Under the pieces are notes generated by a model. That model was not told where the DNA came from. It did not search any database and worked only from the letters and a program-made list of their open reading frames with translations. From Haliclystus octoradiatus (Eukaryota > Cnidaria > Staurozoa > Stauromedusae > Haliclystidae), in assembly GCA_916610825.1 (NCBI GenBank), contig OU744453.1, forward strand, positions 10,931,826-10,995,825: 64,000 bases of DNA. The letters run 5' to 3'. The position numbers and the translations under genes are program-made. Positions 1-23,100 of this stretch are shown piece by piece (the first letter of the stretch is position 1; each line of letters begins with the position of its first letter).

Positions 1-643
1 CGTTTATACATCGGCAAATAGCATACGAATGCTACCAGTTTAGTTAGAAGGTTCGAAAATTTCAGCTTGCGATGCCTCAATTGTTGAAAGCAAATATACC
101 AAATACAGTACACACACTTAATTGTAGTAGCCTTTACTATTGCATTCCATGTGATTGTAGTGCAAATGCACCACTTGCTTTAAGCCCTTTATGACGGTTT
201 GAATTCCAATCAGTAAGCCTATATTCCAACTCCAAAAATAAATAACTCATTCATTCTGTTGTACGTTGGGTGATAATATATAATCAAGTTGCATTGCTTC
301 TATATTTCAACCTGACTTACTTACTTAAAAAAATCATTTGAAGCGCTTGATATAGAATATCAGGAAGCTTTGAAGAGGCCATGTAGTTGTAGATGTTGAA
401 TTTACTTATTTTAGGGATAATACATTTTTAATTTGTAAAACAGGTACTACAGCAGCTGCTAACTGCAGTCAAATTTCTATGTTTTCTACATGGCAGCTCT
501 AGTGTTGCTAACCTTCATGTAGATATTGCTTGCTTATCTGCCTGAGGGCGATACAGTAGATGCAATAACAGTCAACAGTTGTATAAAGAAATTGTAGCAA
601 TTTGCCAATTCTGGTTACGTTTGAATGAATTGTTTATTCTTAG
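1..643. other. Unannotated flank or upstream intron of the prokineticin-like gene
   Basis: This is AT-rich sequence with no convincing exon, RNA gene or repeat. It ends in an acceptor-like pyrimidine-rich stretch and AG at 642-643, directly before the first recognised exon. A signal-peptide exon is expected upstream of 644. I looked for an ATG followed by a hydrophobic run and a phase-0 GT donor and found none that I could support, so that exon is probably left of the window. Confidence 0.4.
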
Positions 644-769
644 AGATGTTATCGAAACTCTCGCTGTCAACTAATGAAGCAACAGTCTTGCTGTGTGAGT
701 GTCAATCATGGCATTGCTGTATGCCAGCCAAAAGTTGGCATTGGTCAAAGGTGTTCACCAACAATAAAG
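644..769 (+). CDS. Prokineticin/astakine-like peptide, N-terminal cysteine exon (partial gene)
   Basis: This exon encodes 42 residues of a small secreted cysteine-rich peptide. Prokineticins act on G-protein-coupled receptors in vertebrates, and related astakines are haematopoietic cytokines in arthropods. The frame starts after an AG at 642-643 and ends before GT at 770-771 (context AAAG/GTAATT), so it is exactly 42 codons in phase 0. Cysteines are at residues 2, 8, 16, 17, 27 and 37. The spacing is C-x5-C-x7-CC-x9-C-x9-C, very close to the prokineticin N-terminal half, where the first and last intervals are also 5 and 9. The exon begins one residue before the first cysteine. In vertebrates the receptor-activating N-terminal hexapeptide sits largely in the preceding exon, which is not visible here. 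An ATG at 674 lies inside the domain and is unlikely to be the real start. The family call rests on spacing and context, not on a database search. Confidence 0.78.
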
Positions 770-2825
770 GTAATTTTAGACAAATTGGTATCTGGTGCCC
801 TATATTTAATGTGCATTGAATATTTGACGTATGCGCATAATATTACATTTTCTAGATATCTAAATTATTAATGCTCGGTGGAATATCTCATTTAATTATC
901 CAACAATTTCAATGAATTATGTCAGGTTTTGGGTCAAATTTTATATTGTATATTTATCGGACAACTGTATGTCCTTCCCTTGTATGTATGTATTTATGTA
1001 TTTTGTCAAATATTCCCTTACATGTATTTTTCTTCAAAACTATGAACTGTTACATTCTGGCCTCAATTGCCCAAGACTCGTTGTGTATGTCATCGCTGTC
1101 TCACATATCTTTCGCAGTGGCACTGATAAACCGCACTCCACCAAATGCTTGTTTTAACTGTGGTTGATACATAGGCATGCGTTGAATCAGTGTTGTTGTG
1201 GCGCCATTTGCTTGCTTGGTAAACTCATTTGTGCCTCATGGAATCTTTAAAACCCTGGAATGAACACAATTTAATCATAAATCACAGGCCCACCTGCGCA
1301 ACTACGTCTACCATCCCGTCTACTATAGATTTGTTTTTCCGGATAATTTCCATAACAATGTCTACGTTTTACCGATGCTCTGATACGTTTCGATATAATT
1401 TACCAGAATTGTTTAATTTAGATAAATCGATTTACATAAATTTTCCAATGCTTTTGCTAAGATAACTGGAGCAACTGTTAATTTTCTTCTTCATCGAATG
1501 AGGCGGATGTAACCCCTTGACAATGGAATTTCAAGAATGTGTACATAGGGCGTTAATTAGTGTAATCAAAAAGACCCCTGTCAAGTATGTTCCAGAATAT
1601 AAACCTATAAAATGCACTGCGGTAATCATTAAATGTCAAAATCATCATCAAACAATGAATTCTATGCCGCGCTGTTCCATGTAGATTCGTATTAAGCATT
1701 CAACCATATCCCATCCAGTGGTATGGGACAAAGTAAATTAATTGATAAGAACGTTTTTTACTATATTTGTAAATAATATTTCAAACAAGATATGATATCA
1801 ATAAACCTGTAATCCTGTAATTCTTTACTGTATAACGCATACTGTATGCTGGACGACTCTTTGGTAGCAACTCGAGATAATTAAACTTGAAACTTATCAA
1901 TTAGTCAATTACAGTACCAATCAATACATCAATATGCAGCCATAAACGATCTAAATGTGTGCAAATCCAATCAGATTTCGTGTCGGATCCAGATTGACTT
2001 TCGATCGGATCGGATTGACATAATTCTGTCTGATTAAATCGGATTTTGAGAATATTGTACATTGTATTTGCAGTTTCTTCAGAAAATCCGATCCGACGCA
2101 CACCTATAACACGAACCATCTTGCTCCATGCAACCATTTTATATAGTAAGGCCTGAAATTATCTTCAACTTGGTTCCTGGTTGGGACCGTTTTGTTGTGG
2201 TTTTGGAGATCAAAGAATCGGTCTCGATTAGCGTATGTCTATAGTTCGTGCATGTGCTGTGCCGTGCCCTGAACCTGCCGATCCTATTCCCATTTGCATT
2301 TGAATAAATTGGTTGAGACCTAATAAAGTCGCTCCCAACAGGCTGGATAGGTATTCGATACTCTCATTGAAGGTTTTCGTGTTCGTTACAAACGCTATTC
2401 CGTAGTCGTTCTTCAGCTTTCAGTTGGTGCATAATAAGGAGCAGCATGGCATCCACAAAAACGGACCTTTTCATTTCAATTGGCACCTGCACGGGCGGTA
2501 CTGGATACTTCGTGGATAGATGATATAGATCACTCACACGTGATAACCGAAATTATGCAGGCCTATAGAGGTATGCCTATAGAAACATATCGTAAAAGTA
2601 CAGTATAAGCGCCTATGGCAAATAAGAGCAACCAACATCAAATTAATTACTGTATTGGTTTAAAATGTCTTAAAATGTATATGATATTGATATCCGCCAA
2701 CTTTTATATTTAGAAACTCAGAATTTTCAGTCTGATACCTTGTGTGCTTGTGATACTTTCTACGGCAATGATAAATTGGAATTCACTTTTGTTGTATTTA
2801 TGGCATGTTTTATTTACTGTTTTAG
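770..2825 (+). other. Intron of the prokineticin-like gene
   Basis: About 2.06 kb lies between a GT donor (770-771) and an AG acceptor (2824-2825) preceded by a T-rich tract. Both flanking exons are in phase 0. The interval is AT-rich and holds a possible small MITE-like element at 1957-2103. A 25-codon ATG frame at 2446-2523 has no recognisable similarity. Nothing else was recognised. The extent depends on the two exons belonging to one transcript. Confidence 0.65.
1957..2103. repeat. Possible small MITE-like element with GTGTGC ends
   Basis: The stretch begins GTGTGC and ends GCACAC, 147 bp apart. Inside, variants of a GGATCGGATT/AATCCGATCC motif occur in both orientations, which gives imperfect inverted terminal arms. 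No target-site duplication was identified. It could be a short non-autonomous transposon or a chance accumulation of the motif. A second genomic copy would settle it. Confidence 0.3.
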
Positions 2826-3020
2826 CCTGTTATCCTGTACGATGGAAGTGTAGTTCAGAACCGCTGTGGCTGTGCTTCGGGTCTGACTTGTACGAGAATC
2901 ACGAGGAAAGCGCGAAAGAGGTCGAAGAAAAGGAGGCGGCCACTTCGCCAGAAGTACAAATGCCTACCATCTCCGACAGAAGCTCCTGAATTGTCGGAAA
3001 TCCATGTTTACAATTCTTGA
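2826..3020 (+). CDS. Prokineticin/astakine-like peptide, C-terminal exon with basic insert
   Basis: This exon carries 64 codons plus TGA at 3018-3020, opening in phase 0 after the acceptor AG at 2824-2825. Cysteines are at exon residues 14, 16, 22 and 46. The core C-G-C-A-S-G-L-T-C is the prokineticin C-x-C-x5-C motif, and K-Y-K-C-L-P matches the conserved aromatic-basic-cysteine close of the family. With the upstream exon the total is ten cysteines, the family number. Between the last two cysteines lie 23 residues, against about nine in typical prokineticins. The extra residues are strongly basic (RKARKR, then SKKRRR, residues 27-38), with dibasic and furin-like sites. A basic insert is also known from the long isoform of mammalian PROK2, though homology of the two inserts is not shown. 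After the domain come 18 polar and acidic residues. An overlapping frame open to 2989 is a shadow: it has none of this pattern. Confidence 0.78.
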   Translation, partial: PVILYDGSVVQNRCGCASGLTCTRITRKARKRSKKRRRPLRQKYKCLPSPTEAPELSEIHVYNS

Positions 3021-3600
3021 AACGATTTCTCAAAGAAGCAACAATTTTTATTCATAGATTGCAAAACAGCTGGTTCAAAATTCAGGACGGCATTTATCAG
3101 CGACAATTCTATTGCATTGCTGTACACGGAAGCCTGTTCAATCAGGTATTCCACAGTGTTTATTTATTGGCATTTGCAAGCCGCAAGTTTTCGGTACGGG
3201 TTTACTAGTAAGGTGATAATATACCCACATCCACTTGCAAATATAGCATTAAATGGTATAAATTATGACGTTGCTCGAAAGCAGCATGAAAATAATGTTA
3301 ACTTATATTTACTGATAGAGATACGTAAAAAACGTAACTAATATATACTTAGCATATATATGCACACCCATATACGTATAAATATAATATATGTGTATAT
3401 ATATACATAGAGATTTACTCTTGCCTTGTACATATCTCCTTTCATACATATTGTACTAATTCAGGTCTAATTAAAACGGCGATGTAAATCCGATCATATA
3501 TAGTCACTAAGATCCGATATGCATGGATAATGTATTTTGTATAGCCTGCATACTAGCTATAAAGCAATAAATAAATAATACACAATCAATTACATTATTA
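3021..3600 (+). other. Probable 3' UTR and AT-rich downstream sequence
   Basis: After the TGA at 3018-3020 no further exon is visible. Overlapping AATAAA signals at 3566-3571 and 3570-3575 are the first clear run of polyadenylation hexamers and could end the transcript about 0.55 kb past the stop. This is inference: no transcript evidence is available, and AATAAA is common in sequence this AT-rich. Confidence 0.3.
3341..3409. repeat. Imperfect AT/TATA microsatellite
   Basis: A run of alternating T and A with interruptions (ATATATAC, CATATATATG, GTATATATATAC) lies in the presumed 3' UTR or just past it. It is simple sequence with no further recognisable content. Confidence 0.7.
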
Positions 3601-7756: not shown

Positions 7757-10700
7757 TCGAAGTGGTTTAAAAAAGCTAGAGGGAAATAAGAGCCGGATTT
7801 TCACTTTCTCGACTTTGAATGTCTCTCACACTAAAACGAGAGATACAATTCACTATCTATCTTAGTATGTCATAATCAGACATGTATCGAAATGATTTAA
7901 AAAAAACTAAATGTAAACATATAAAGTCTATATTTAATAACAGCCATGCATCTACGTTGACTTAAGTCTTCATTTCACTACTTTTCAGATGTTGAAAAAG
8001 GCTGGTATTCAACTTTCTCCACTTTAAATGTCTCTCATATTAAAACACGGGATATACAATTCACTATCTATATATGTTAGTATGTCATACTCAGGCATGC
8101 ATCGAAATGATTTAAAAAAACTAAATGTAAACATATAAAGTCTATATTTAATAACAGCCATGCATCTACGTTGACTTAAGTCTTCATTTCACTACTTTTC
8201 AGATGTTGAAAAAGGCTGGTATTCAACTTTCTCCACTTTAAATGTCTCTCATATTAAAAAACAGGAGATACAATTCACTATCTATATATGCTAGTATGTC
8301 ATACTCAGACATGTATCGAAGTGATTTAAAAGAACTAAATGTAAAAATATAAAGTCTATATTTAATAACAGCCATCTACGTTGACTTAAGTCTCATTTCA
8401 CTAATTTTCAGATTTTGAAATAGGCTGGATTTCAGCTTTCTCCATTTCAAAAGTATGTCACACTGAAACAGGTGATACAATTTACTATCTATATATGTTA
8501 GTATGTCATACTCAGACATGTATCGAAATGATTTACTACGTTGACTTAAGTCTCATTTCACTACTTTTCAGATTTTGAAATAGGCTGGTTTTCAACTTTC
8601 TCCACTTTAAATGTCTCTCATATTAAAAAACAGGAGATACAATTCACTATCTATATATGTTAGTATGTCATCCTCAGACATGTATCGAAGTGATTTAAAA
8701 GAACTAAATGTAAAAATATAAAGTCTATATTTAATTACAGCCATCTACGTTGACTTAAGTCTCATTTCACTACTTTTGAGATTTTGAAATAGGCTGGTTT
8801 TCAACTTTCTCCACTTTAAATGTCTCTCATATTAAAACACGGGAGATACAATTCACTATCTATATATGTTAGTATGTCATACTCAGACATGTATCGAAAT
8901 GATTTACTACGTTGACTTAAGTCTCATTTCACTACTTTTCAGATTTTGAAATAGGCTGGTTTTCAACTTTCTCCACTTTAAATGTCTCTCATATTAAAAA
9001 ACGAGAGATACAATTCACTATCTATATATGTTAGTATGTTATACCCAGACATGTATCGAAGTGATTTAAAAGAACTAAATGTAAAAATATAAAGTCTATG
9101 TTTAATAACAGCCATCTACGTTGACTTAAGTCTCATTTCACTACTTTTGAGATTTTGAAATAGGCTGGTTTTCAACTTTCTCCACTTTAAATGTCTCTCA
9201 TATTAAAAAACGAGAGATACAATTCACTATCTATATATGTTAGTATGTCATACTCAGACATGTATCGAAATGATTTACTACGTTGACTTAGGTCTCATTT
9301 CACTACTTTTCAGATTTTGAAATAGGCTGGTTTTCAACTTTCCCCACTTTAAATGTCTCTCATATTAAAACACGGGATATACAATTCACTATCTATATAT
9401 GTTAGTATGTCATACTCAGGCATGTATCGAAATGATTTAAAAGAACTAAATGTAAAAATATAAAGTCTATATTTAATTACAGCCATCTACGTTGACTTAA
9501 GTCTCATTTCACTAATTTTCAGATTTTGAAATAGGCTGGTTTTCAACTTTCCCCACTTTAAATGTCTCTCATATTAAAAAACGAGAGATACAATTCACTA
9601 TCTATATATGTTAGTATGTCATCCTCAGACCTGTATCGAAGTGATTTAAAAGAACTAAATGTAAAAATATAAAGTCTATATTTAATAACAGCCATCTACG
9701 TTGACTTAAGTCTCATTTCACTAATTTTCAGATTTTGAAATAGGCTGGTTTTCAACTTTCCCCACTTTAAATGTCTCTCATATTAAAACACGGGAGATAC
9801 AATTCACTATCTATATATGTTAGTATGTCATACTCAGACATGTATCGAAGTGATTTAAAAGAACTAAATGTAAAAATATAAAGTCTATGTTTAATAACAG
9901 CCATCTACGTTGACTTAAGTCTCATTTCACTACTTTTCAGATTTTGAAATAGGCTGGTTTTCAACTTTCCCCACTTTAAATGTCTCTCATATTAAAACAC
10001 GGGAGATACAATTCACTATCTATATATGTTAGTATGTCATCCTCAGACATGTATCGAAATGATTTAAAAGAACTAAATGTAAAAATATAAAGTCTATATT
10101 TAATTACAGCCATCTACGTAATTGACTTAAGTCTCATTTCACTAATTTTCAGATTTTGAAATAGGCTGGTTTTCAACTTTCCCCACTTTAAATGTCTCTC
10201 ATATTAATACACGGGAGATACAATTCACTATCTATATCTGTTAGTATGTTATACTCAGACATGTATCGAAGTGATTTAAAAAAACTAAATGTAAAAACAT
10301 AAAGTCTATATTTAATTACAGCCATCTACGTTGACTTAAGTCTCATTTCACTACTTTTCAGATTTTGAATTAGGCTAGTTTTCAACTTTCCCCACTTCAA
10401 ATGTCTCTCATATTAAAACACGGGAGATACAATTCACTATCTATATATGTTAGTATGTCATACTCAGGCATGTATCGAAATGATTTAAAAAAACTAAATG
10501 TAAAAACATAAAGTCTATATTTAATTACAGCCATCTACGTTGGCTTAAGTCTCATTTCACTACTTTTCAGATTTTGAAATAGGCTGGTTTTCAACTTTCC
10601 CCACTTTAAATGTCTCTCATATTAAAAAACGAGAGATACAATTCACTATCTATATATGTTAGTATGTCATACTCAGACATGTATCGAAGTGATTTAAAAG

Positions 10701-11905
10701 AACTAAATGTAAAAATATAAAGTCTATGTTTAATAACAGCCATCTACGTTGACTTAAGTCTCATTTCACTAATTTTCAGATTTTGAAATAGGCTGGTTTT
10801 CAACTTTCCCCACTTTAAATGTCTCTCATATTAAAACACGGGAGATACAATTCACTATCTATATATGTTAGTATGTCATCCTCAGACATGTATCGAAGTG
10901 ATTTAAAAGAACTAAATGTAAAAATGTAAAGTCTATATTTAATTACAGCCATCTACGTTGACTTAAGTCTCATTTCACTAATTTTCAGATTTTGAAATAG
11001 GCTGGTTTTCAACTTTCTCCACTTTAAATGTCTCTCATATTAAAAAACAGGAGATACAATTCACTATCTATATATGTTAGTATGTCATCCTCAGACATGT
11101 ATCGAAGTGATTTAAAAGAACTAAATGTAAAAATATAAAGTCTATATTTAATTACAGCCATCTACGTTGACTTAAGTCTCATTTCACTACTTTTCAGATT
11201 TTGAAATAGGCTGGTTTTCAACTTTCCCCACTTTAAATGTCTCTCATATTAAAAAACGAGAGATACAATTCACTATCTATATATGTTAGTATGTCATCCT
11301 CAGACATGTATCGAAGTGATTTAAAAGAACTAAATGTAAAAATGTAAAGTCTATATTTAATTACAGCCATCTACTTTGACTTAAGTCTCATTTCACTAAT
11401 TTTCAGATTTTGAAATAGGCTGGTTTTCAACTTTCTCCACTTTAAATGTCTCTCATATTAAAAAACAGGAGATACAATTCACTATCTATATATGTTAGTA
11501 TGTCATACTCAGACATGTATCGAAGTGATTTAAAAGAACTAAATGTAAAAATATAAAGTCTATGTTTAATAACAGCCATCTACGTTGACTTAAGTCTCAT
11601 TTCACTACTTTTCAGATTTTGAAATAGGCTGGTTTTCAATTTTCTCCACTTTAAATGTCTCTCATATTAAAAAACAGGAGATACAATTCACTATCTATAT
11701 ATGTTAGTATGTCATCCTCAGACATGTATCGAAGTGATTTAAAAGAACTAAATGTAAAAATATAAAGTCTATATTTAATAACAGCCATCTACGTTGACTT
11801 AAGTCTCATTTCACTAATTTTCAGATTTTGAAATAGGCTGGATTTCAGCTTTCTCCATTTCAAAAGTATGTCACACTGAAACAGGTGATACAATTTACTG
11901 TTTAT
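7757..11905 (+). repeat. Satellite array, 209-bp monomer with a 162-bp deletion variant
   Basis: Taking GATTTTGAAATAGGCTGG as the phase marker, units begin at about 7988, 8202, 8411, 8571, 8780, 8942, 9151, 9313, 9522, 9731, 9940, 10152, 10361, 10570, 10779, 10988, 11197, 11406, 11615 and 11824. Most spacings are exactly 209 bp. One is 212, from a 3-base insertion near 10120, and three are 160-162. The short units lack about 47 bp (from AAAAGAACTAAATG to AACAGCCATC). Between 8411 and 9522 short and full units alternate, making a dimeric repeat of about 370 bp. From 9522 onward all units are full length. Edge units (7757-8410 and 11840-11905) are the most diverged. No long open frame crosses the units. 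Confidence 0.95.
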
Positions 11906-14341: not shown

Positions 14342-14427
14342 CCACTGCTTCTTTATAGCAGTCTCACAATTTACTCAAATTCAATAATATCAAACCTACT
14401 CCCTTATTTTTGGTTGAAAAAAACATC

Positions 14428-15183
14428 ATGGCCACATATCAATTACCTGCACCTGAGCCTCCATGCCTTAAAGGAGACATGGTTGAGAACGTTAAATCAT
14501 TCAGACCTCGCTGGTTAGATTGGAAATTAGCTACAGGAGTAAACTCACAAAAGAAGATGGCAATGCTGACCATAACGAAAAAAAAACTTGTTGCCATCAC
14601 ACTATTGACAATAATTGGAAAGGAAGCAGAAAGAATATCTAGAACCAAACCTGAGTTCATTGCTACAGTACTAGACGACCCAGAAATGTTGTGGGAAGCT
14701 TTTGAAAGCACTTTCTGCTGGAAAGACATGTTCTCTTTGAGCGTTAAAAATTTTTCAAATGTGAACAAACTGTAGCTGAGAAAACAACAGACTTTGAAAT
14801 CCGCTTGCGACGTTTCGCAGCTTCACGTGAATTCGGAAAACTCGAAGATGAATTACTAAGAGATATTCTTGTTGCTCATACCACAGACATTTCAACAAGG
14901 GACAAATTGTTGAAAGAAGGACCTGTCAATAATCTTAAACGATGTCTGGAAGTGTTGACTGCAGCCGAAACATCGCGCTATTTTACAGATCAACTTCCTT
15001 ATCTGACGCACAAATTCATGCCACAAAATGACAACTTACTCATTCACCGGGCAGTTTATCAAAAGACAAGCCTTATTATTCTAGCTGCAAATTCTATGGC
15101 AAAGCACATTTTAAAGGAGAGTGCCCAGCATTGGAAACAAATGCCACGAATGTGGTGGAATGAACCACCTAAGTGTTGTCTGC
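14428..15183 (+). pseudogene. Ty3/Gypsy gag with CCHC zinc knuckle, frameshifted
   Basis: The ATG at 14428 opens a gag-like frame (MATYQLPAPEPPCLKGDM...) that runs to a stop at 14773-14775. Homologous sequence continues in another frame at 14776-15120 (SREFGKLEDELLRDILV, then a helical capsid-like region). It shifts again into the frame holding a zinc knuckle at 15142-15183, C-x2-C-x4-H-x4-C, all four ligands intact. In a live element gag forms the particle and the knuckle binds the RNA. At least two frameshifts separate capsid from nucleocapsid, so it is dead. An open minus-strand frame over 14439-14768 is a shadow of this gene. Confidence 0.8.
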
Positions 15184-15700
15184 AAAAGCAAAAGAAACCA
15201 GCAACCTGGCAGCGATGAACATGCTCCAGTAGAAGCAATGCAAAACTCTCGCTCACTGAAAAGAATAAATGAAATCAAGAAAGGTAAAGATGGACAGTTT
15301 AGGATCAAAATGACTTATCTTGATCATTATGGAAATTACGATATGGCTACACAACTTGATACTGGTGCCACATGTAATGCTATGAGCTACGATGACCTAA
15401 TACAAATATTTCAATGTGGACCCACCTTAGGAAAACCAAAATTCAGCATTCAAATGTATGATGGTTCCATAAAAAAACCTCTTGGAACGTATCCATTGGA
15501 TGTCCATGCCAAAGGTGATGAAAGGAATAAAACAAAGAATTATGTTTGACATCATTCCAAAGGTTCCATGGCCTATAATCTCTGACTGGCTAACTTTGAA
15601 CATTGGTATCCATATTCGTCAAATACAGCCTGATATAAAAGATATACATACAAAGACAGTTTCAATGGCTTAGGATGCCTTGCTTGTGATTATCGCATAG
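15184..15700 (+). pseudogene. Ty3/Gypsy aspartic protease region, frameshifted
   Basis: The frame continues from the zinc knuckle into QLDTGATCNAMS, where D-T-G-A at 15358-15369 is the retropepsin active-site motif. The flap-like segment and a DGS loop follow. The open frame ends at about 15549; related sequence (FDIIPKVPWPIIS) continues in another frame to about 15670. The active-site triad residues are present, but the frame break near 15510 would prevent a complete protease. Confidence 0.7.
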
Positions 15701-15769
15701 AAATAGACGAAACCATCAGACCATGCCAAGATGCACCTAGAAGAGTGCCTAAATTGCCTTCAAAGATAA

Positions 15770-16700
15770 AATTCAGGATCGAATTGATGAACTGGTATCT
15801 CAAAATATCATAGAAAAGCTGGAAGGTCACTCAGATATGATCTGTAGCGCTGTGTATGTGGAAAAGAATAACAATATTAGAGTAATCCTAGATCCTAAAG
15901 CATAAAACAAAGCTATTCTCAGACCACGATATCAAATGCCCACAATAGACGAGGTTCTACCAAAATTAAACAACGCCAAATTATTCAGTGTACTTGATGC
16001 CAAAGATGGATTATTTCAAATCCCGCTAAGTCCTGAAAGCCAGAAACTTACAACATTCTGGGGACCAAATGGCACAAAATACATGTACCTGAGATTTCTA
16101 CAAGGGGTATGCAGTGCACCTGAAGAGTATCAACGCAGACAAGTTGAAGCCCTCAATGGTCTTACTGGATATCCTGTTATCGCTGATGAATTTGGTTCAG
16201 GAGACATACTTTTGGAGGCCTCTCAAGATCATAATAACAATTTTCAAGATATTCATTTTCATTGGGAATCAGAAAAGGAACAAGCATATCAAACAATTTT
16301 GAAGTTGATAGCGTCTACTCCAGTCCTGAAATATTACAATGTAAAAGAACAAATAACTTTGGAGAATGATTGTAGCTAAAAAGGAATAGGGTGCGGCCTG
16401 AAACAAAATGACCAACCTGTCGCATTTGCATCTCGTGTACTTACAGCCACCGAATAGAACTATGCACAAATCGAAAAGAGATGCTTGCCATTGTCTTTGG
16501 ATGTGAGAGATGTCATCAATACATATATGAACGGGATATCATCAACATTGAAACCGATCACAAGCAGCTTGTCGCCATTTTCAAGAAACCGATTCATTTA
16601 GCTCAAAGGCGTCTGCAAAGAATGATGTTAAGACAAATTTAATATTGATCTCAAATACAAAAAAGGATCTGAAATATACCTAAGTAACATGCTGAGTCAT
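15770..16700 (+). pseudogene. Ty3/Gypsy reverse transcriptase/RNase H, decayed and internally deleted
   Basis: Fingers-like sequence from about 15780 is stopped by TAA at 15903-15905. The same frame resumes with MPTIDEVLPKLNNAKLFSVL at 15936. Motif A is D-A-K-D-G-L-F-Q at residues 21-28 of that frame. The catalytic Y-x-D-D box has become V-I-A-D-E (residues 81-85), losing the second aspartate. Directly after it the thumb is missing: the sequence jumps to a connection-domain stretch (ASTPVLKYYNV). RNase H follows with TAA at 16377-16379 and further breaks; a TDHKQL motif is readable near 16555. Nothing could be translated intact. Confidence 0.75.
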
Positions 16701-16759
16701 GCATTTCTCCCAAACTATGAAAAAGGAATGCGGCATAGCACATCACAATGATATCTTTT

Positions 16760-17568
16760 CCCTCTTGCAGAGGAACAGGAAGTATTTGATACGATTGCAG
16801 AAACAAAACAGGCTGACTACGCGAATATAACCGGGCCTTCTGAGCAACATATTAAAGAAGCTAGCCAAAGTGATCCTGTACTTCAATCTTTGGTGAGGTT
16901 AATCTTTCATGGTTTGTCAGAAACAAAGAATGAACTTCCACTCCAAATTCGACAACTTTTGTCATTTCGTGACGAATTCATTGTCCGGAATGGCATAATG
17001 TACAAAGGCATGAAGATCTTCATCCCTCAGGCATTGCAAATACTAATGATCAACAAAGTGCACTCATCACATTTGGGAAGAGACAGGTACATTAGATGGA
17101 CAAAAGATGTACTGTATTGGCCTGGCGTAACCACCGACATTACAAATACTGTTGAGCAGTGTGAAATATCTGCTCAATACTCAGTTAAGTTAACAAAAAA
17201 AAATTATTTCAGTTAACAAAAAAAGAACCTATGATGTGGTCACTGATGTCACATCCCATACCAACTCTACCATTTGAGGTTGTCATCCAGGATCTATTCT
17301 CACACAAAAGGCAACTATCTTCTCACCGTTGATCATTATTCAGAAACTGCCAAATCGCTGCTAAAGAAAGCCAAAGAGCCAAAGAGACGGTAAAGACTTC
17401 AAACAGAGTCTACTTGATTGACGTAACGCACCTGGCCCTGATTGGGTTTTCACCAGCTCAGAAGCAACTGAGAAAAAGAGCTAAAACGACAATAACTTGT
17501 ACAAAAGGAAGTCTTGCACCAAAGATAGTGGAAAGAGTACCTGATATGATCAAAAAAAGGAAGCAATA
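16760..17568 (+). pseudogene. Ty3/Gypsy integrase remnant
   Basis: An open stretch at 16890-17216 contains the integrase zinc-domain pattern: HSSH, then YWPGVTTDI about 20 residues on, then a single cysteine (QCEIS) where two are expected, so the second zinc cysteine is lost. The start of the catalytic core with its first aspartate (VIQDLF) lies near 17290. Most of the core is then deleted, and a C-terminal GFSPAQKQL-like piece appears at about 17443. The coding relic ends at about 17568 (IKKRKQ and a stop). Immediately after it lies the LTR of the opposite-strand Gypsy element. Confidence 0.7.
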
Positions 17569-17775: not shown

Positions 17776-20398
17776 CTACGAATCAAATCCATAATAGTTA
17801 GGCGTATTAGAGTGCCTTGTAGAGCGACGCAACTCAGGCGAAGCTGGAATGTCATAATTAGGTAACTGATTATCATTATCATTACTAAATCGGAGGGGGT
17901 ACTCAACCTATCTGATTTTGTGAAGCAAGAATCGTGCACCCTTCGGATTGCAACCATGCGGTATTAGTGCCTTTCGAAATAACAAATTCGGTCTCTTTCG
18001 TATGACCGTTAGGTAAAGGACGATACAGAACATGCTCTCCTGTTGAAAACCCTGCCACAAAAGGGACTCTTAGGTTACTCCCTAGTAGGATTTCAGCTGG
18101 CGATTTACCCCTTGCTATCGATGTTGTACGATGCACCAACAATATTTTATTAAGAAACATATCAAAGGAAACTCTTAAGCTACGATGCCATGCTTTCATG
18201 GCCCGCTTAACAGTCTGGACTGATCGCTCCGCCAAACAGTTGGCACGTAGAAAGTAGGCGGGTGATTCGGATTTGTAACAGCCAGACTTTGATAGCCAGC
18301 CAACGATCTCATCGTTAACAAATTCTCGCGCGTTATCCGAAACTAAATGTTTTGCCACACCAAAGCGGGAGAAAAAAGCTGAGAAAATACGGATAATATT
18401 GGGAGTTGATCTATCAGGACAACGAAATGCCTCAATCCAGCAACTGCCTGCATCGACGACAACAAATACATTTCCTATGTCGGGTACATGCCCAAAATCC
18501 ATGTCTAACCTCTCCCACGGTAAAACGGTAGGCCATTCATGAACTGTTTTACTTGTTTTTGGGCGTAAAGATGCGCAGTCTTTACAGCTGGAAACAAATC
18601 GATCTGCGTCTCTGGCCATACCTGGCCACCATGCCCCTTTTTGAAGAAATCGCTGAGTCGCATTAATGCCTTGATGAGTAGAATGCGCCTTACTCAACAC
18701 AGATTCACGCAGGGTAAGGGGAATATAGGGAACAGACCCACAATATATAACGTCCTTTTCCAGAGTCAGCATTGACTCAACGCGTGCAAAAGGGCGTTCT
18801 GCTTCTGATGGTGTTTTCCAATTCCCGGAGATTACGCGTGCTTTTATGCTTTTCGCAAAGGATCAAGATTTAAAGCTAGTTGAAGATCAGTCAATGGTAT
18901 GACTGAGTGTAAAAAAGCATTTTCACAGGAATCAATAATAGCAATGTTTGCGACAACATCTTCGCGGCTTAACGGGCTTGCAGATAAACGAGACAGAGTA
19001 TCGGCATGAGCAATCTCGGTTCCTGGACGATGCATTATATCAAAATCAAAAGCCATGAGCTTAATTGCCCAACGGCAAAGTCGTGCAGAGGTGGTCTTCG
19101 GAAGAGGCTGATTTGGGGAAAATAAACGTATCAATGTCTTATGATCTGTAATGAGGGTGAAGCATCTACCCAGCAAAAGTTGTCTTAATCGTTCAATGCA
19201 CCATACAATGCCTAGGGCCTCTTGTTCAGTTGCCGAATAGTTTTGTACAGCTTGATTAAGAGAACGTGAAACATAAATAACAGGCTTCCCATCTTGGGTC
19301 AAAACCCCTGCAATGCAGCTTTCTGATGCATCGGTAGTTAACGTTGCCTCTTAGACAAGGGAGTACGGTTGAACAAGTGGATTGCTAGACAATTCATTTT
19401 TTAGACGCTCAAAGGCTCTGTCGCAATGTGTATCCCAAACAAATGGTATGTCTATTTTGTGCAATTTATTAAATGGTCTAATTTTATCTGAAAAATTCGA
19501 AATCAAGCGACCAAAAAAATTAATCAGACCTACAAATGCTTCGAGCTCTTTTTTATTCTTTGGTGCTCGAATAGAATTTATTTTACTAACAAGTTGCTGG
19601 TCAGGTTGAATTCCTGCAGCAGAAATTCGATAGCCCAAGAACGAGATTTCTGTTGCATGTTCGGTACATTTTCCTGCATTAATGGACATTTTTCACGAAC
19701 GAAGCCTTTCTAAAATGGCATTTAATCTTTTATTGAGGGATTCCTCTGTTTCTGCAAATACTAATACGTCATCCTGATACGCAATCAAACATTTGAGTCC
19801 CGCAAGGACATCTTCTATAACGCGCTGGAAAATTGCAGAACTATTTCGCATTCCCATTTGCAGACGAGTGACTCGATAAAGGCCCTTGTTAGTATTTATT
19901 ACTGACAAATTTTGAGCAAAACCATCAAGTTTAACTTGCCAGTACGCCGACTGTAGATCAATTTTTGCAAAATATGCTGCACCCTCCATCTTGGAGAAAA
20001 TTGTTTCAATATTTGGTATTGGATAGTCGTCAACTAAAATTTTGCCGTTTACATGGACACTAAAATCTGCACACATGCGCAAACCCCCAGACTTCTTTTT
20101 TACCCAAACAACAGGAGAATCATTTTCTACACCACCCGATTCAATAGGTTCAATTACGCCCATTGACTGCAGTTTGTCTAGTTCATTGTCAACACCTTGT
20201 TGCAAGGGGAGTGGTACAGGTCTTGCTCTACAAAACATCGGCTTTTCACCCTCCTTTAGCTTCATAGACGCAACCACACCAGTAATATAGGGTAACGGTT
20301 TTACTTTTTGCTCAAAACAATTTATCGGCTGTGCACTATCAAAATTATGTCCTAATAAACCATAGTTAGAAAAAGACTTAACAACATGAAATATTAGA
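17776..20398 (-). pseudogene. Ty3/Gypsy pol (RT, RNase H, integrase), 5'-truncated, with few breaks
   Basis: Reading right to left, an open frame enters from the satellite junction at about 20398. Reverse transcriptase comes first: motif A (KIDLQSAYWQV) and an intact Y-Q-D-D box. An in-frame TGA at 19693-19695 follows, then the thumb and connection (ISFLGYRIS). An in-frame TAA lies at 19351-19353. RNase H follows, with DASES, an active-site glutamate (TEQEAL) and TDHKTL. A frameshift at about 18844 leads to integrase: HSTH...CKDC zinc domain, then core D (RLDMDF), D (LVSDNA) and E (LAERSV), all present. A second frameshift near 17925 leads to a C-terminal tail (LRRSTRHS...) ending at 17776-17778. 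Two nonsense codons and two frameshifts disable it, but every catalytic residue I could check survives, so it is much younger than the plus-strand copy. Protease and gag are missing. Confidence 0.88.
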
Positions 20399-23100
20399 TG
20401 TCTTGCAAGTTTTTTAGATGCCTACTGACTGACCATTGTCTTGTTTTAGGTCTAGACGTTTGGTTTTAGGTCTAATCATCTGTTTCGCTGTCTAGACGCA
20501 TATTGTTTGAAATTGCCTGGTTTTTCGTGTAGAGGTATAGTTTTACGTCTAGAAGCCTGTCTGGCTATGTAGATGCTTATACACTCACAATTGTCTAACT
20601 CTCCGTCTAGACGTCTGGTTTTCCGTCTAGACGTCTGTTTAGCTGTGTAGACGCTTATTGTCTGACCTTTGTTGAGTTTTTCATCTAGACGACTGTCTGG
20701 CTGTCTAGACACTTACTCTCTGACCATTGTCTTGTTTCCCGTATGGACGTCTGTTTAGCTGTCTAGAGGCTTATTGTCTGACCTTTGTCTAGGTTTTCGT
20801 CTAGACGTCTGCTTTTCTGTCTAGACCTCTGGTAAGCTGTCTAGACGCCTATTGTCTAACAATTCTCTGGTTTTACGTCTAGACATCTGTTTAGCTGTCT
20901 AGAGGCTTACTTTCTGGCATTTGTCTAGTTTTTCGTCTAGACGTCATGTTTTCTGTCTAGACGTCTTGTTTTCTGTCTAGACGTCTTGTTTTCTGTCTAG
21001 ACGTCTGGCTAGCTGTTTAGACGCCTATTGTCTGAAAATTGTCTGGTTTTCCGTCTATACGTCTGGTTTTCTTTCCAGACGTACGGCAAGCTGTCTAGAC
21101 GCCTATTGTCTGAAAATTGTCTGGTTTTCCGTCTAAACGTCTGGTTTTCCGTCTAGACGTCTGGTTTTCTGTCTAGACGTCTGGCAAGCTGTCTAGACGT
21201 ATGGTTTTCTGTCTAGACGTCTGGCAAGCTGTCTAAAAGTATGGTTTTCTGTCTAGACGTCTGGCAAGCTGTCTAGACGCCTATTGTCTGAAAATTGTCT
21301 GGTTCCTCGTCTAGACATTTGGCAAGCTGTCTAGACACCTATTGTCTGAAAATTGTCTGGTTTTCCGTCTAGACGTCTGGAAAATTGTCTAGACGCACAT
21401 TGTCTGAAAACTGTCTGGTTTTCCGTCTAGACGTATGGTTTCCTGTCAACACGTTTGCTTAGCTGTATACACGACTATTATCTGAAAACTGTCTGGTTTT
21501 CCGTCTAGACGTCAGGTTTTTCGTCTAGACACTTGGCAAGCTGTCTAGACGCCTATTGTTTGAAAAATGTCTGCTTTTCCGTCTGGACGTCTGGTTTTCC
21601 GTCTAGACGTCTGGAAAATTGTCTAGACGCATATTGTCTGAAAACTGTCTGGTTTTCCGTCTAGACGTATGGTTTTCTGTCAAGACGTTTGCTTAGCTGT
21701 ATACACGACTATTATCTGAAAAATGTCTGGTTTTCCGTCTAGACGTCAGGTTTTTCGTCTAGACACTTGGCAAGCTGTTGAGACGCCTATTGTTTGAAAA
21801 TTATCTGGTTTTTCGTCTAAATGTCTGGTTTTCCGTCTAGAAGTCTGACAAGCTGTCTAGACGCCTATTGTTTGAAAATTGTCTGGTTTTTCCTCTAGAC
21901 GTCTGGTTTTCTGTCTAGACGTCTGGCAAGCTGTCTAGACGTCTATTGTTTGAAAACTGTCTGGTTTTCCGTCTGGACGTCTTGTTTTCCGTCTAAACGT
22001 CTGGTTTTCTGTCTAGACGTATGGTTTTTTGTCAAGACTTTTGTTTAGCTGTATAAATGGTATTGTCTGAAAACTGTCTGGTTTTCCGTCAAGACGTATG
22101 GTTTCCTGTCAAGACGTTTGCTTAGCTGTATACACGACTATTATCTGAAAACTGTCTGGTTTTCCGTCTAGACGTCAGGTTTTTCGTCTAGACACTTGGC
22201 GAGCTGTTTAGACGCCTATTGTTTGAAAATTATCTGGTTTTTCGTCTAAATGTCTGGTTTTCTGTCTAGAAGTCTGGCAAGCTGTCTAGACGCCTATTGT
22301 TTGAAAATTTCTGGTTTTTCGTCTAGACGTCTGGTTTCTCGTCTAGACACTTGGCAAGCTGTTTAGACGTCTTTTGTCTGAAAATTGTCTGGTTTTTCGA
22401 CAAGACACTTGGCAAGCTGTCCAGACGCCTATTGTCTGAAAATTTCTGGTTTTTCGTCTGGACGTCTTGTTTTCCGTCTAAACGTCTGGTTTTCTGTCTA
22501 GACGTATGGTTTTTTGTCAAGACTTTTGTTTAGCTGTATAAATGGTATTGTCTGAAAACTGTCTGGTTTTCCGTCAAGACGTATGGTTTCCTGTCAAGAC
22601 GTTTGCTTAGCTGTATACACGACTATTATCTGAAAACTGTCTGGTTTTCTGTCTAGACGTCAGGTTTTTCGTCTAGACACTTGGCAAGCTGTTTAGACGT
22701 CTTTTGTCTGAAAATTGTCTGGTTTTTCGACAAGACACTTGGCAAGCTGTCCAGACGCCTATTGTCTGAAAATTTCTGGTTTTTCGTCTAGACGTCTGGT
22801 TTCTTGTCTAGACACTTGGCAAGCTGTCTAGACGCCTATTGTCTGAAAATTATCTGGTTTTTCATCTAAATGTCTGGTTTTCTGTCTTGAAGTCTGGCAA
22901 GCTGTCTAGACGCCTATTGTTTGAAAATTGTCTGGTTTTTCGTCTAGACGTCTGGTTTTCTGTGTAGACGTCTGGCAAGCTGTCTAGACGCCTATTGTTT
23001 GAAAACTGACTGCTTTTCCGTCTGGACGTCTGGTTTTCTGTCTAAACGTCTGGTTTTCATTCTAGACGTATGGTTTTCTGTCAGGACGTTTGTTTAGCTG
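20399..23100 (+). repeat. Diverged left edge of the GTCTAGAC satellite
   Basis: Units here are irregular. Early ones show degraded cores such as GTCTAATCATCTG, GTGTAGAGGTATAG and GTCTAGAAGCCTG. From about 21000 clean 78-bp units appear, with local duplications: a block with TTTGTTTAGCTGTATAAATGG at about 22045 recurs at about 22525. The long-range 4.93-kb order is not yet present. This is the pattern expected where unequal exchange no longer reaches the array end. Confidence 0.8.

Follow-up and report, generated by a model that had tools for sequence, protein, structure and literature searches.

The first three kilobases of the DNA analysed here, a window of 64,000 bases on chromosome 8 of the stalked jellyfish Haliclystus octoradiatus (C10:10931826-10995825, in a genome of 261,861,806 bases in 33 contigs), in all probability hold most of a real gene that belongs to the prokineticin superfamily. 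With somewhat less assurance, we favour its reading as a three-exon gene for a small secreted peptide with a ten-cysteine colipase fold, whose layout comes nearest to that of NDA-1 and the astakines and whose cationic domain would act on anionic surfaces.

Structure of the gene and its paralogue

The original prediction had proposed two exons, at 644-769 and 2826-3020 of the forward strand, with consensus splice borders and a join in phase 0, and its reading of both exons agrees with ours. Intron 1 (909 nt in all) has its 3' part at 1..643 and the rest upstream of the window. Exon 2 (644..769, 42 codons) lies between the acceptor attcttag|AGATGT at 644 and the donor ATAAAG|gtaatt after 769, and carries six cysteines of the ten-cysteine domain in the pattern C-x5-C-x7-CC-x9-C-x9-C. 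Intron 2 (770..2825; 2056 nt, phase 0) falls between cysteines 6 and 7, five residues past the sixth. Exon 3 (2826..3020, acceptor ctgttttag|CCTGTT at 2826, stop codon 3018-3020) supplies the last four cysteines (C-x-C-x5-C-x23-C), a basic loop between cysteines 9 and 10 (2892..2960), in which 14 of the 23 residues are K or R and none is D or E, and an acidic C-terminal tail (2964..3017, LPSPTEAPELSEIHVYNS) containing the motif PTE[AS]PE that the gene has in common with its paralogue. The likely 3' untranslated region (3021..3575) is placed by a motif match alone, AATAAA at 3566 and 3570, some 550 nt beyond the stop; like the other features it lies on the plus strand. Joining the exons gives a product whose ten cysteines follow the prokineticin order, spaced 5,7,0,9,9,18,1,5,23; ten had been predicted, although the spacing of the sixth (x9) was missing from that description. 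The six-cysteine pattern occurs once in the six frames of 120.4 kb of local sequence and in none of 40 Markov-1 copies of equal length, whereas the looser four-cysteine pattern is by itself weak evidence, because it occurs six times against a mean of 1.3 in such copies. A search against NCBIfam and one of the window against Rfam at gathering scores returned no match. RNA-seq data for the species exist (ERR9434978), according to the part of PMC9975415 available to us.

An upstream signal exon had also been anticipated, and a good candidate is found at C10:10931425-10931559 on the plus strand. This stretch of 45 codons (MKTRSKK...LMVLIFSLATPSLAAF) ends in the phase 0 donor TTT|gtaagt (...RRLLLMVLIFSLATPSLAAF|gtaagt), 266 nt upstream of the first base of the window and 909 nt upstream of exon 2. 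It was picked by hydrophobicity and donor in a scan of open stretches, and is a candidate: the 100.6 kb upstream contain eight distinct leader-like stretches with a phase-0 donor in sense and eight in antisense orientation, among all 16 of which it is the nearest to exon 2 and ranks first in hydrophobicity. It probably encodes a signal peptide and a few mature residues, and the three exons would be joined by predicted splices. Judged by eye, cleavage after SLA would leave the mature end AF-RC, while a crude scan placed the cut further forward, which would make the mature end PSLAAF-RC.

A permissive genome search with the gene gave seven matches: its own two exons, a pair some 1.5 Mb away on C10, and three on contig C2. 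The distant pair on C10 makes up a second gene, whose exon A' (LSMC...NPTIE|gtgagt) likewise has 42 codons and six cysteines and joins in phase 0 to exon B' (LGKQFTCGC...KYRCVKVPTESPEF... up to the stop); 1574 nt upstream of A' lies a leader-like exon with a phase-0 donor (...MVFLIITVVCMLPKAIMADRT|gtaggt). The two joined proteins match in BLASTP at 2e-14, with 32% identity over 99 columns, and have in common the motifs CGC..GLTC and KY[KR]Cx3PTE[AS]PE. The reverse search with the paralogue returned three matches, its own two exons and exon 3 of the first gene, and permissive genome searches from both genes yielded no further paralogue with the same exon plan beyond this one. That so diverged a pair has kept the exon plan and the tail argues more strongly than anything else for a real gene.

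Window positions 7803-11864 are taken up by a tandem array, whose units include ones of about 209 and 371 bases, followed by frames that resemble by eye retroelement gag/pol pieces in two opposite units (14359-17216, plus; 17903-20421, minus). A long satellite with a 20-base core and units of 58, 78 and 136 bases takes up positions 20443-64000 and loci L013-L022, at least 100 kb downstream. One exact 23-mer of it has 377 forward and 357 reverse matches genome-wide, and all of the 100 matches listed are on C10. The satellite sits about halfway along the chromosome (10.95 of 20.73 Mb) and is a centromere candidate. On the other side, at C10:10904234-10905774 on the minus strand, a neighbouring gene shows Ig-like frames, one of which was searched and matches Ig domains of titin, Robo and DSCAM.

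Prokineticin or Dickkopf

A search of solved structures with the single sequence gave eight matches up to E 10, led by Bv8 (4.2e-4) and the snake prokineticin intestinal toxin 1 (0.045), with a theraphotoxin (0.054), Dkk2 (0.18), dispersin (0.68) and three Dkk1 entries (2-3) as weaker ones. A profile built from the two genes gave ten, again led by Bv8 (2.2e-5) and intestinal toxin 1 (1.4e-4), with Dkk2 at 0.11 and Dkk1 at 0.45 to 1; two bacterial proteins in the same list (E 0.083 and 0.085) were taken as chance matches. By these structure-library searches prokineticins stand ahead of Dickkopf in sequence proximity, and judged from its sequence the peptide is a member of the prokineticin superfamily (astakine/NDA-1/colipase-like). 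The predicted superfamily thus stands, on its best matches to Bv8 and intestinal toxin 1, and so does the prediction of an invertebrate member, the organism being a cnidarian. COX1 on contig C33 has eight in-frame TGA codons and is open if TGA is read as a residue, which fits a cnidarian.

The Pfam prokineticin profile (PF06607, curated cut-off 21.6 bits), with which the original prediction had proposed to search, gave a less clear answer. The two-exon product without leader scores 21.4 bits, just below the cut-off, and with the candidate leader 27.3 bits (25.6 from a shorter start of exon 1). This gain was dropped as proof of exon 1 and is mostly a generic effect, because control leaders lift the score too: among eight, namely the seven other upstream sense candidates and one antisense stretch (top score), three carried the product past the cut-off (22.4, 25.2 and 25.7 bits) and five gave no prokineticin match. 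Exon 1 alone matches nothing in Pfam. The paralogue remains under the cut-off with 16.0-17.3 bits. Searched across the whole genome, the profile missed the gene's own exons and found two other matches. One, L024, was judged spurious, because the matched stretch contains a stop and corresponds mainly to the profile's leader portion; the other, L023 (C5:1408377-1411553), is by profile a Dickkopf with its first cysteine-rich domain present (Dickkopf_N 43.8 bits). Since this Dickkopf gene also reaches the cut-off (21.6 bits at full length, 24.0 when the second domain is scored by itself), the PF06607 score on its own is indecisive. Because the prokineticin profile can catch Dickkopf, tallies of prokineticin "toxin domains" for jellyfish call for caution.

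L023, by contrast, is closer to Dkk1 (36 bits) than to Bv8 (17.8), though intestinal toxin 1 reaches 33.9. The three C2 matches belong to adjacent genes with a ten-cysteine-type domain (L047-L049, C2:38671900-38680700), which we take to be Dkk3-like; a preceding cysteine-rich exon lies upstream in L048. For the two domains of this cluster that were scanned, PF06607 was the sole match, at 15.4 and 18.6 bits, below the cut-off, and they have C-x2-C where the other domains compared have C-x-C. In L023, L047 and L048 a single open exon carries cysteines 1-9, and what looks like a donor sits between cysteines 9 and 10; L049 has an additional intron after the double cysteine. A split between cysteines 6 and 7 is therefore found in none of the four Dickkopf-like genes, as against both of the prokineticin-like genes.

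These comparisons bear on two alternatives. The gene might be a Dickkopf of which just the second cysteine-rich domain is left, antagonising Wnt in the manner of Hydra Dkk1/2/4, which lacks CRD-1 in the account given in the consulted part of PMC6425005. A weak Pfam match to the C-terminal subdomain 2 of Dkk1/2/4 (E 0.029) speaks for this, and so does the link to the C2 cluster, which is not negligible, because a domain BLAST from the candidate (L049 left out) gave L047 41.6 and L048 40.8 bits against 56.2 for the paralogue, with L023 at 31.2. However, the genome has a Dickkopf of its own that retains the first domain, no Dickkopf_N match appears in the candidate product in Pfam with or without leader, the exon structures differ as described, and the two-gene profile favours prokineticins; we regard a reduced Dickkopf as improbable. 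Still less credible is a dead or chance exon pair. A position about 17 kb from the long satellite, near frames that resemble transposon pieces by eye, would suit such debris, but the open frames, splice borders and poly(A) motif argue against it, as does the conservation of cysteines, phases and tail motif in the paralogue. We retain a live gene of the prokineticin superfamily as the preferred reading.

Exon plan, N-terminal tip and receptor

In human PROK2, c.94 (G32 of AVITGA) is assigned to exon 1, c.101 (C34) to c.217 to exon 2 and c.297 to exon 4 (PMC3624607, Table 2), and a spliced insert follows mature residue 47 (PMC2694302), both sources having been available in part. With A28 as mature residue 1, we deduce that exon 2 of PROK2 would end at c.222 and measure 122-128 nt, or 42 codons if both borders are in phase 0. 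Aligned to the candidate in Bv8 numbering, residue 47 falls six residues past the sixth cysteine; in Haliclystus the first cysteine is preceded by one or three residues of the 42-codon exon, and the exon closes five residues past the sixth in both genes. Both intron positions of the gene therefore appear to match those of PROK2, with its borders so deduced, to about one residue. In octocoral colipases the loss of exon 2 removes six of the ten cysteines, in the passages of PMC11896702 at hand. From the PROK2 match together with this exon loss, the three-exon plan was probably already in place before cnidarians and bilaterians parted.

The prediction had also raised the question of an N-terminal hexapeptide in the upstream exon. 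AVITGA is absent there, the mature end by eye being AF-RC, and the corresponding end of the paralogue, also judged by eye, is DRT-LSMC. In vertebrate prokineticins six tip residues switch on the receptors. Neither AVIT (three sense frames) nor the full K/R-RFP-K/R motif (sense) occurs in candidate exon 1 or in the 100 kb upstream; the search returned three stray matches, none of them AVIT and none adjoining a usable donor. K/R-RFP-K/R next to the domain is the motif of ambulacrarian and Xenoturbella prokineticins in the sections of PMC11521371 to which we had access.

Partners were sought with an approximate 300-residue fragment of human PROKR2, and 131 of 248 first-look candidates were scored. 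It has at least 97 matches in the genome at E up to 0.001, the best of which (L025) is 27% identical at 95.7 bits. The L025 protein is probably not a prokineticin receptor, because NPFF receptor 2 fits it better (158 bits). No prokineticin-receptor orthologue was found in this limited search, in which the top match of the 97 was back-checked and which intron-split receptors could escape. A place in the AVIT family proper is consequently not borne out: neither the candidate exon nor 100 kb of upstream sense sequence yielded the hexapeptide, the two-exon score falls short of a cut-off that a Dickkopf of the same genome reaches, and the limited search gave no receptor orthologue.

Two functional alternatives can be weighed on this basis. 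The peptide might be a hormone of the prokineticin type, acting through a G-protein-coupled prokineticin receptor as its vertebrate counterparts do. This would accord with the vertebrate-like exon plan and the best sequence match to Bv8, and the many peptide-receptor-like matches could hide an unrecognised partner. It seems very doubtful nonetheless, with no AVIT or K/R-RFP-K/R next to a usable donor in the sense sequence searched, with the best receptor match nearer to NPFF receptor 2, and with prokineticin receptors recorded only from deuterostomes and a nemertodermatid in the portion of PMC6188537 we could use. A colipase-type nematocyst venom component, as in the octocoral Eunicella, is the less remote of the two, yet still unlikely. 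Octocoral colipases lack AVITG and seem to have the six-plus-four cysteine exon plan (PMC11896702), and PF06607 has been counted as a toxin-associated domain in Nemopilema (PMC6441219), each as far as the accessible text goes; on the other hand, all but one of the octocoral precursors described there are modular with several domains, whereas here there is one domain, and a single paralogue with the same exon plan was found.

We give slightly less than even odds to a history in which the three-exon prokineticin plan predates the cnidarian-bilaterian split. An exon border would then separate the folded core from the N-terminal tip, and the AVITGA tip of chordates, like the RFP tip of ambulacrarians, would have arisen within its own lineage through change where exon 1 ends. 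Such tips would have been added to an older core that worked without a prokineticin receptor and may have served to kill microbes or bind glycans. If this is true, both Haliclystus paralogues exemplify the condition without a tip. That limited searches found neither tip nor receptor for a cnidarian pair whose exon borders are those of the vertebrate genes suggests that the receptor-activating end was a later addition to an existing fold and gene plan.

Charge and comparison with known systems

Computed from the sequence, the core of the gene has 22 K/R to 1 D/E and a pI of about 10.6, followed by the acidic tail. We propose that the signal peptide, together with what are probably a few residues of the mature chain, comes from exon 1, that exon 2 contributes six cysteines and exon 3 the other four along with the tail, and that the cysteine pattern would give five disulfides. 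The secreted cationic domain might then bind anionic surfaces. These could be glycosaminoglycans, with the peptide serving as a local signal of the cytokine kind, or the envelopes of bacteria, as for NDA-1, and the basic loop between cysteines 9 and 10 could contact heparan sulphate or such envelopes; action would not pass through an AVITGA tip entering a prokineticin receptor. This mechanism, drawn by analogy, is tentative, and we hold it more loosely than the evolutionary reading above. The paralogue has a core of only 12 K/R to 7 D/E and a far shorter loop of mixed charge; the mechanism would for that reason be a feature of this gene and not of the pair, and a family-wide cationic mechanism is weakened.

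Invertebrate ligands of this type had been called sparsely described, which is partly right; Hydra NDA-1, octocoral colipases and jellyfish PF06607 domains have nevertheless been published, and prokineticin-related or PF06607 proteins of cnidarians are already on record (PMC6188537, PMC11521371, PMC6441219, PMC5614986, as excerpted). The present gene is not described in those parts of the open-access literature on prokineticins in Staurozoa and Medusozoa that were available. What deserves further attention is the exon-plan argument and the tipless pair.

With PROK1 and PROK2/Bv8 the gene shares the ten-cysteine pattern and the signal, six-cysteine and four-cysteine exon plan. Unlike them it has few predicted mature residues from exon 1, a long basic loop between cysteines 9 and 10 and an acidic tail, and the limited searches found neither AVITGA in the gene nor a prokineticin receptor in the genome. 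Ambulacrarian and Xenoturbella prokineticins differ in carrying K/R-RFP-K/R beside the domain, the full motif of which the cnidarian gene lacks. The second cysteine-rich domain of Dickkopf proteins (Dkk1/2/4, Dkk3 and the CRD-2-only Dkk of Hydra) resembles the gene in its colipase-type domain and similar cysteine spacing. Unlike the gene, the four Dickkopf-like genes of Haliclystus have no intron between cysteines 6 and 7, a separate CRD-1 Dickkopf is present in the genome (L023, which in this differs from the CRD-2-only Dkk1/2/4 of Hydra), and Dickkopf ranks lower in profile score. The octocoral venom colipases are like the gene in lacking AVITG and in having six of ten cysteines that are lost with exon 2, but are mostly multidomain nematocyst precursors where the gene encodes a single domain (PMC11896702, in the sections consulted).

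The closest likeness, by description in the partial sources at our disposal, is to arthropod astakines, which have a ten-cysteine prokineticin-type domain without AVITGA, and to NDA-1 of Hydra. The latter is a neuron-secreted peptide that inhibits bacteria and has a C-terminal domain behind its cationic ten-cysteine one (PMC5614986, in part). The Haliclystus gene agrees with this described layout in its signal peptide (here a candidate), cationic ten-cysteine domain, C-terminal domain and cnidarian origin, whereas the core of its paralogue is far less cationic. The authors of NDA-1, whose tree was largely unresolved, considered the peptide restricted to Hydra in the same portion of their paper, and the present gene raises the question whether NDA-1-type peptides are truly so restricted.
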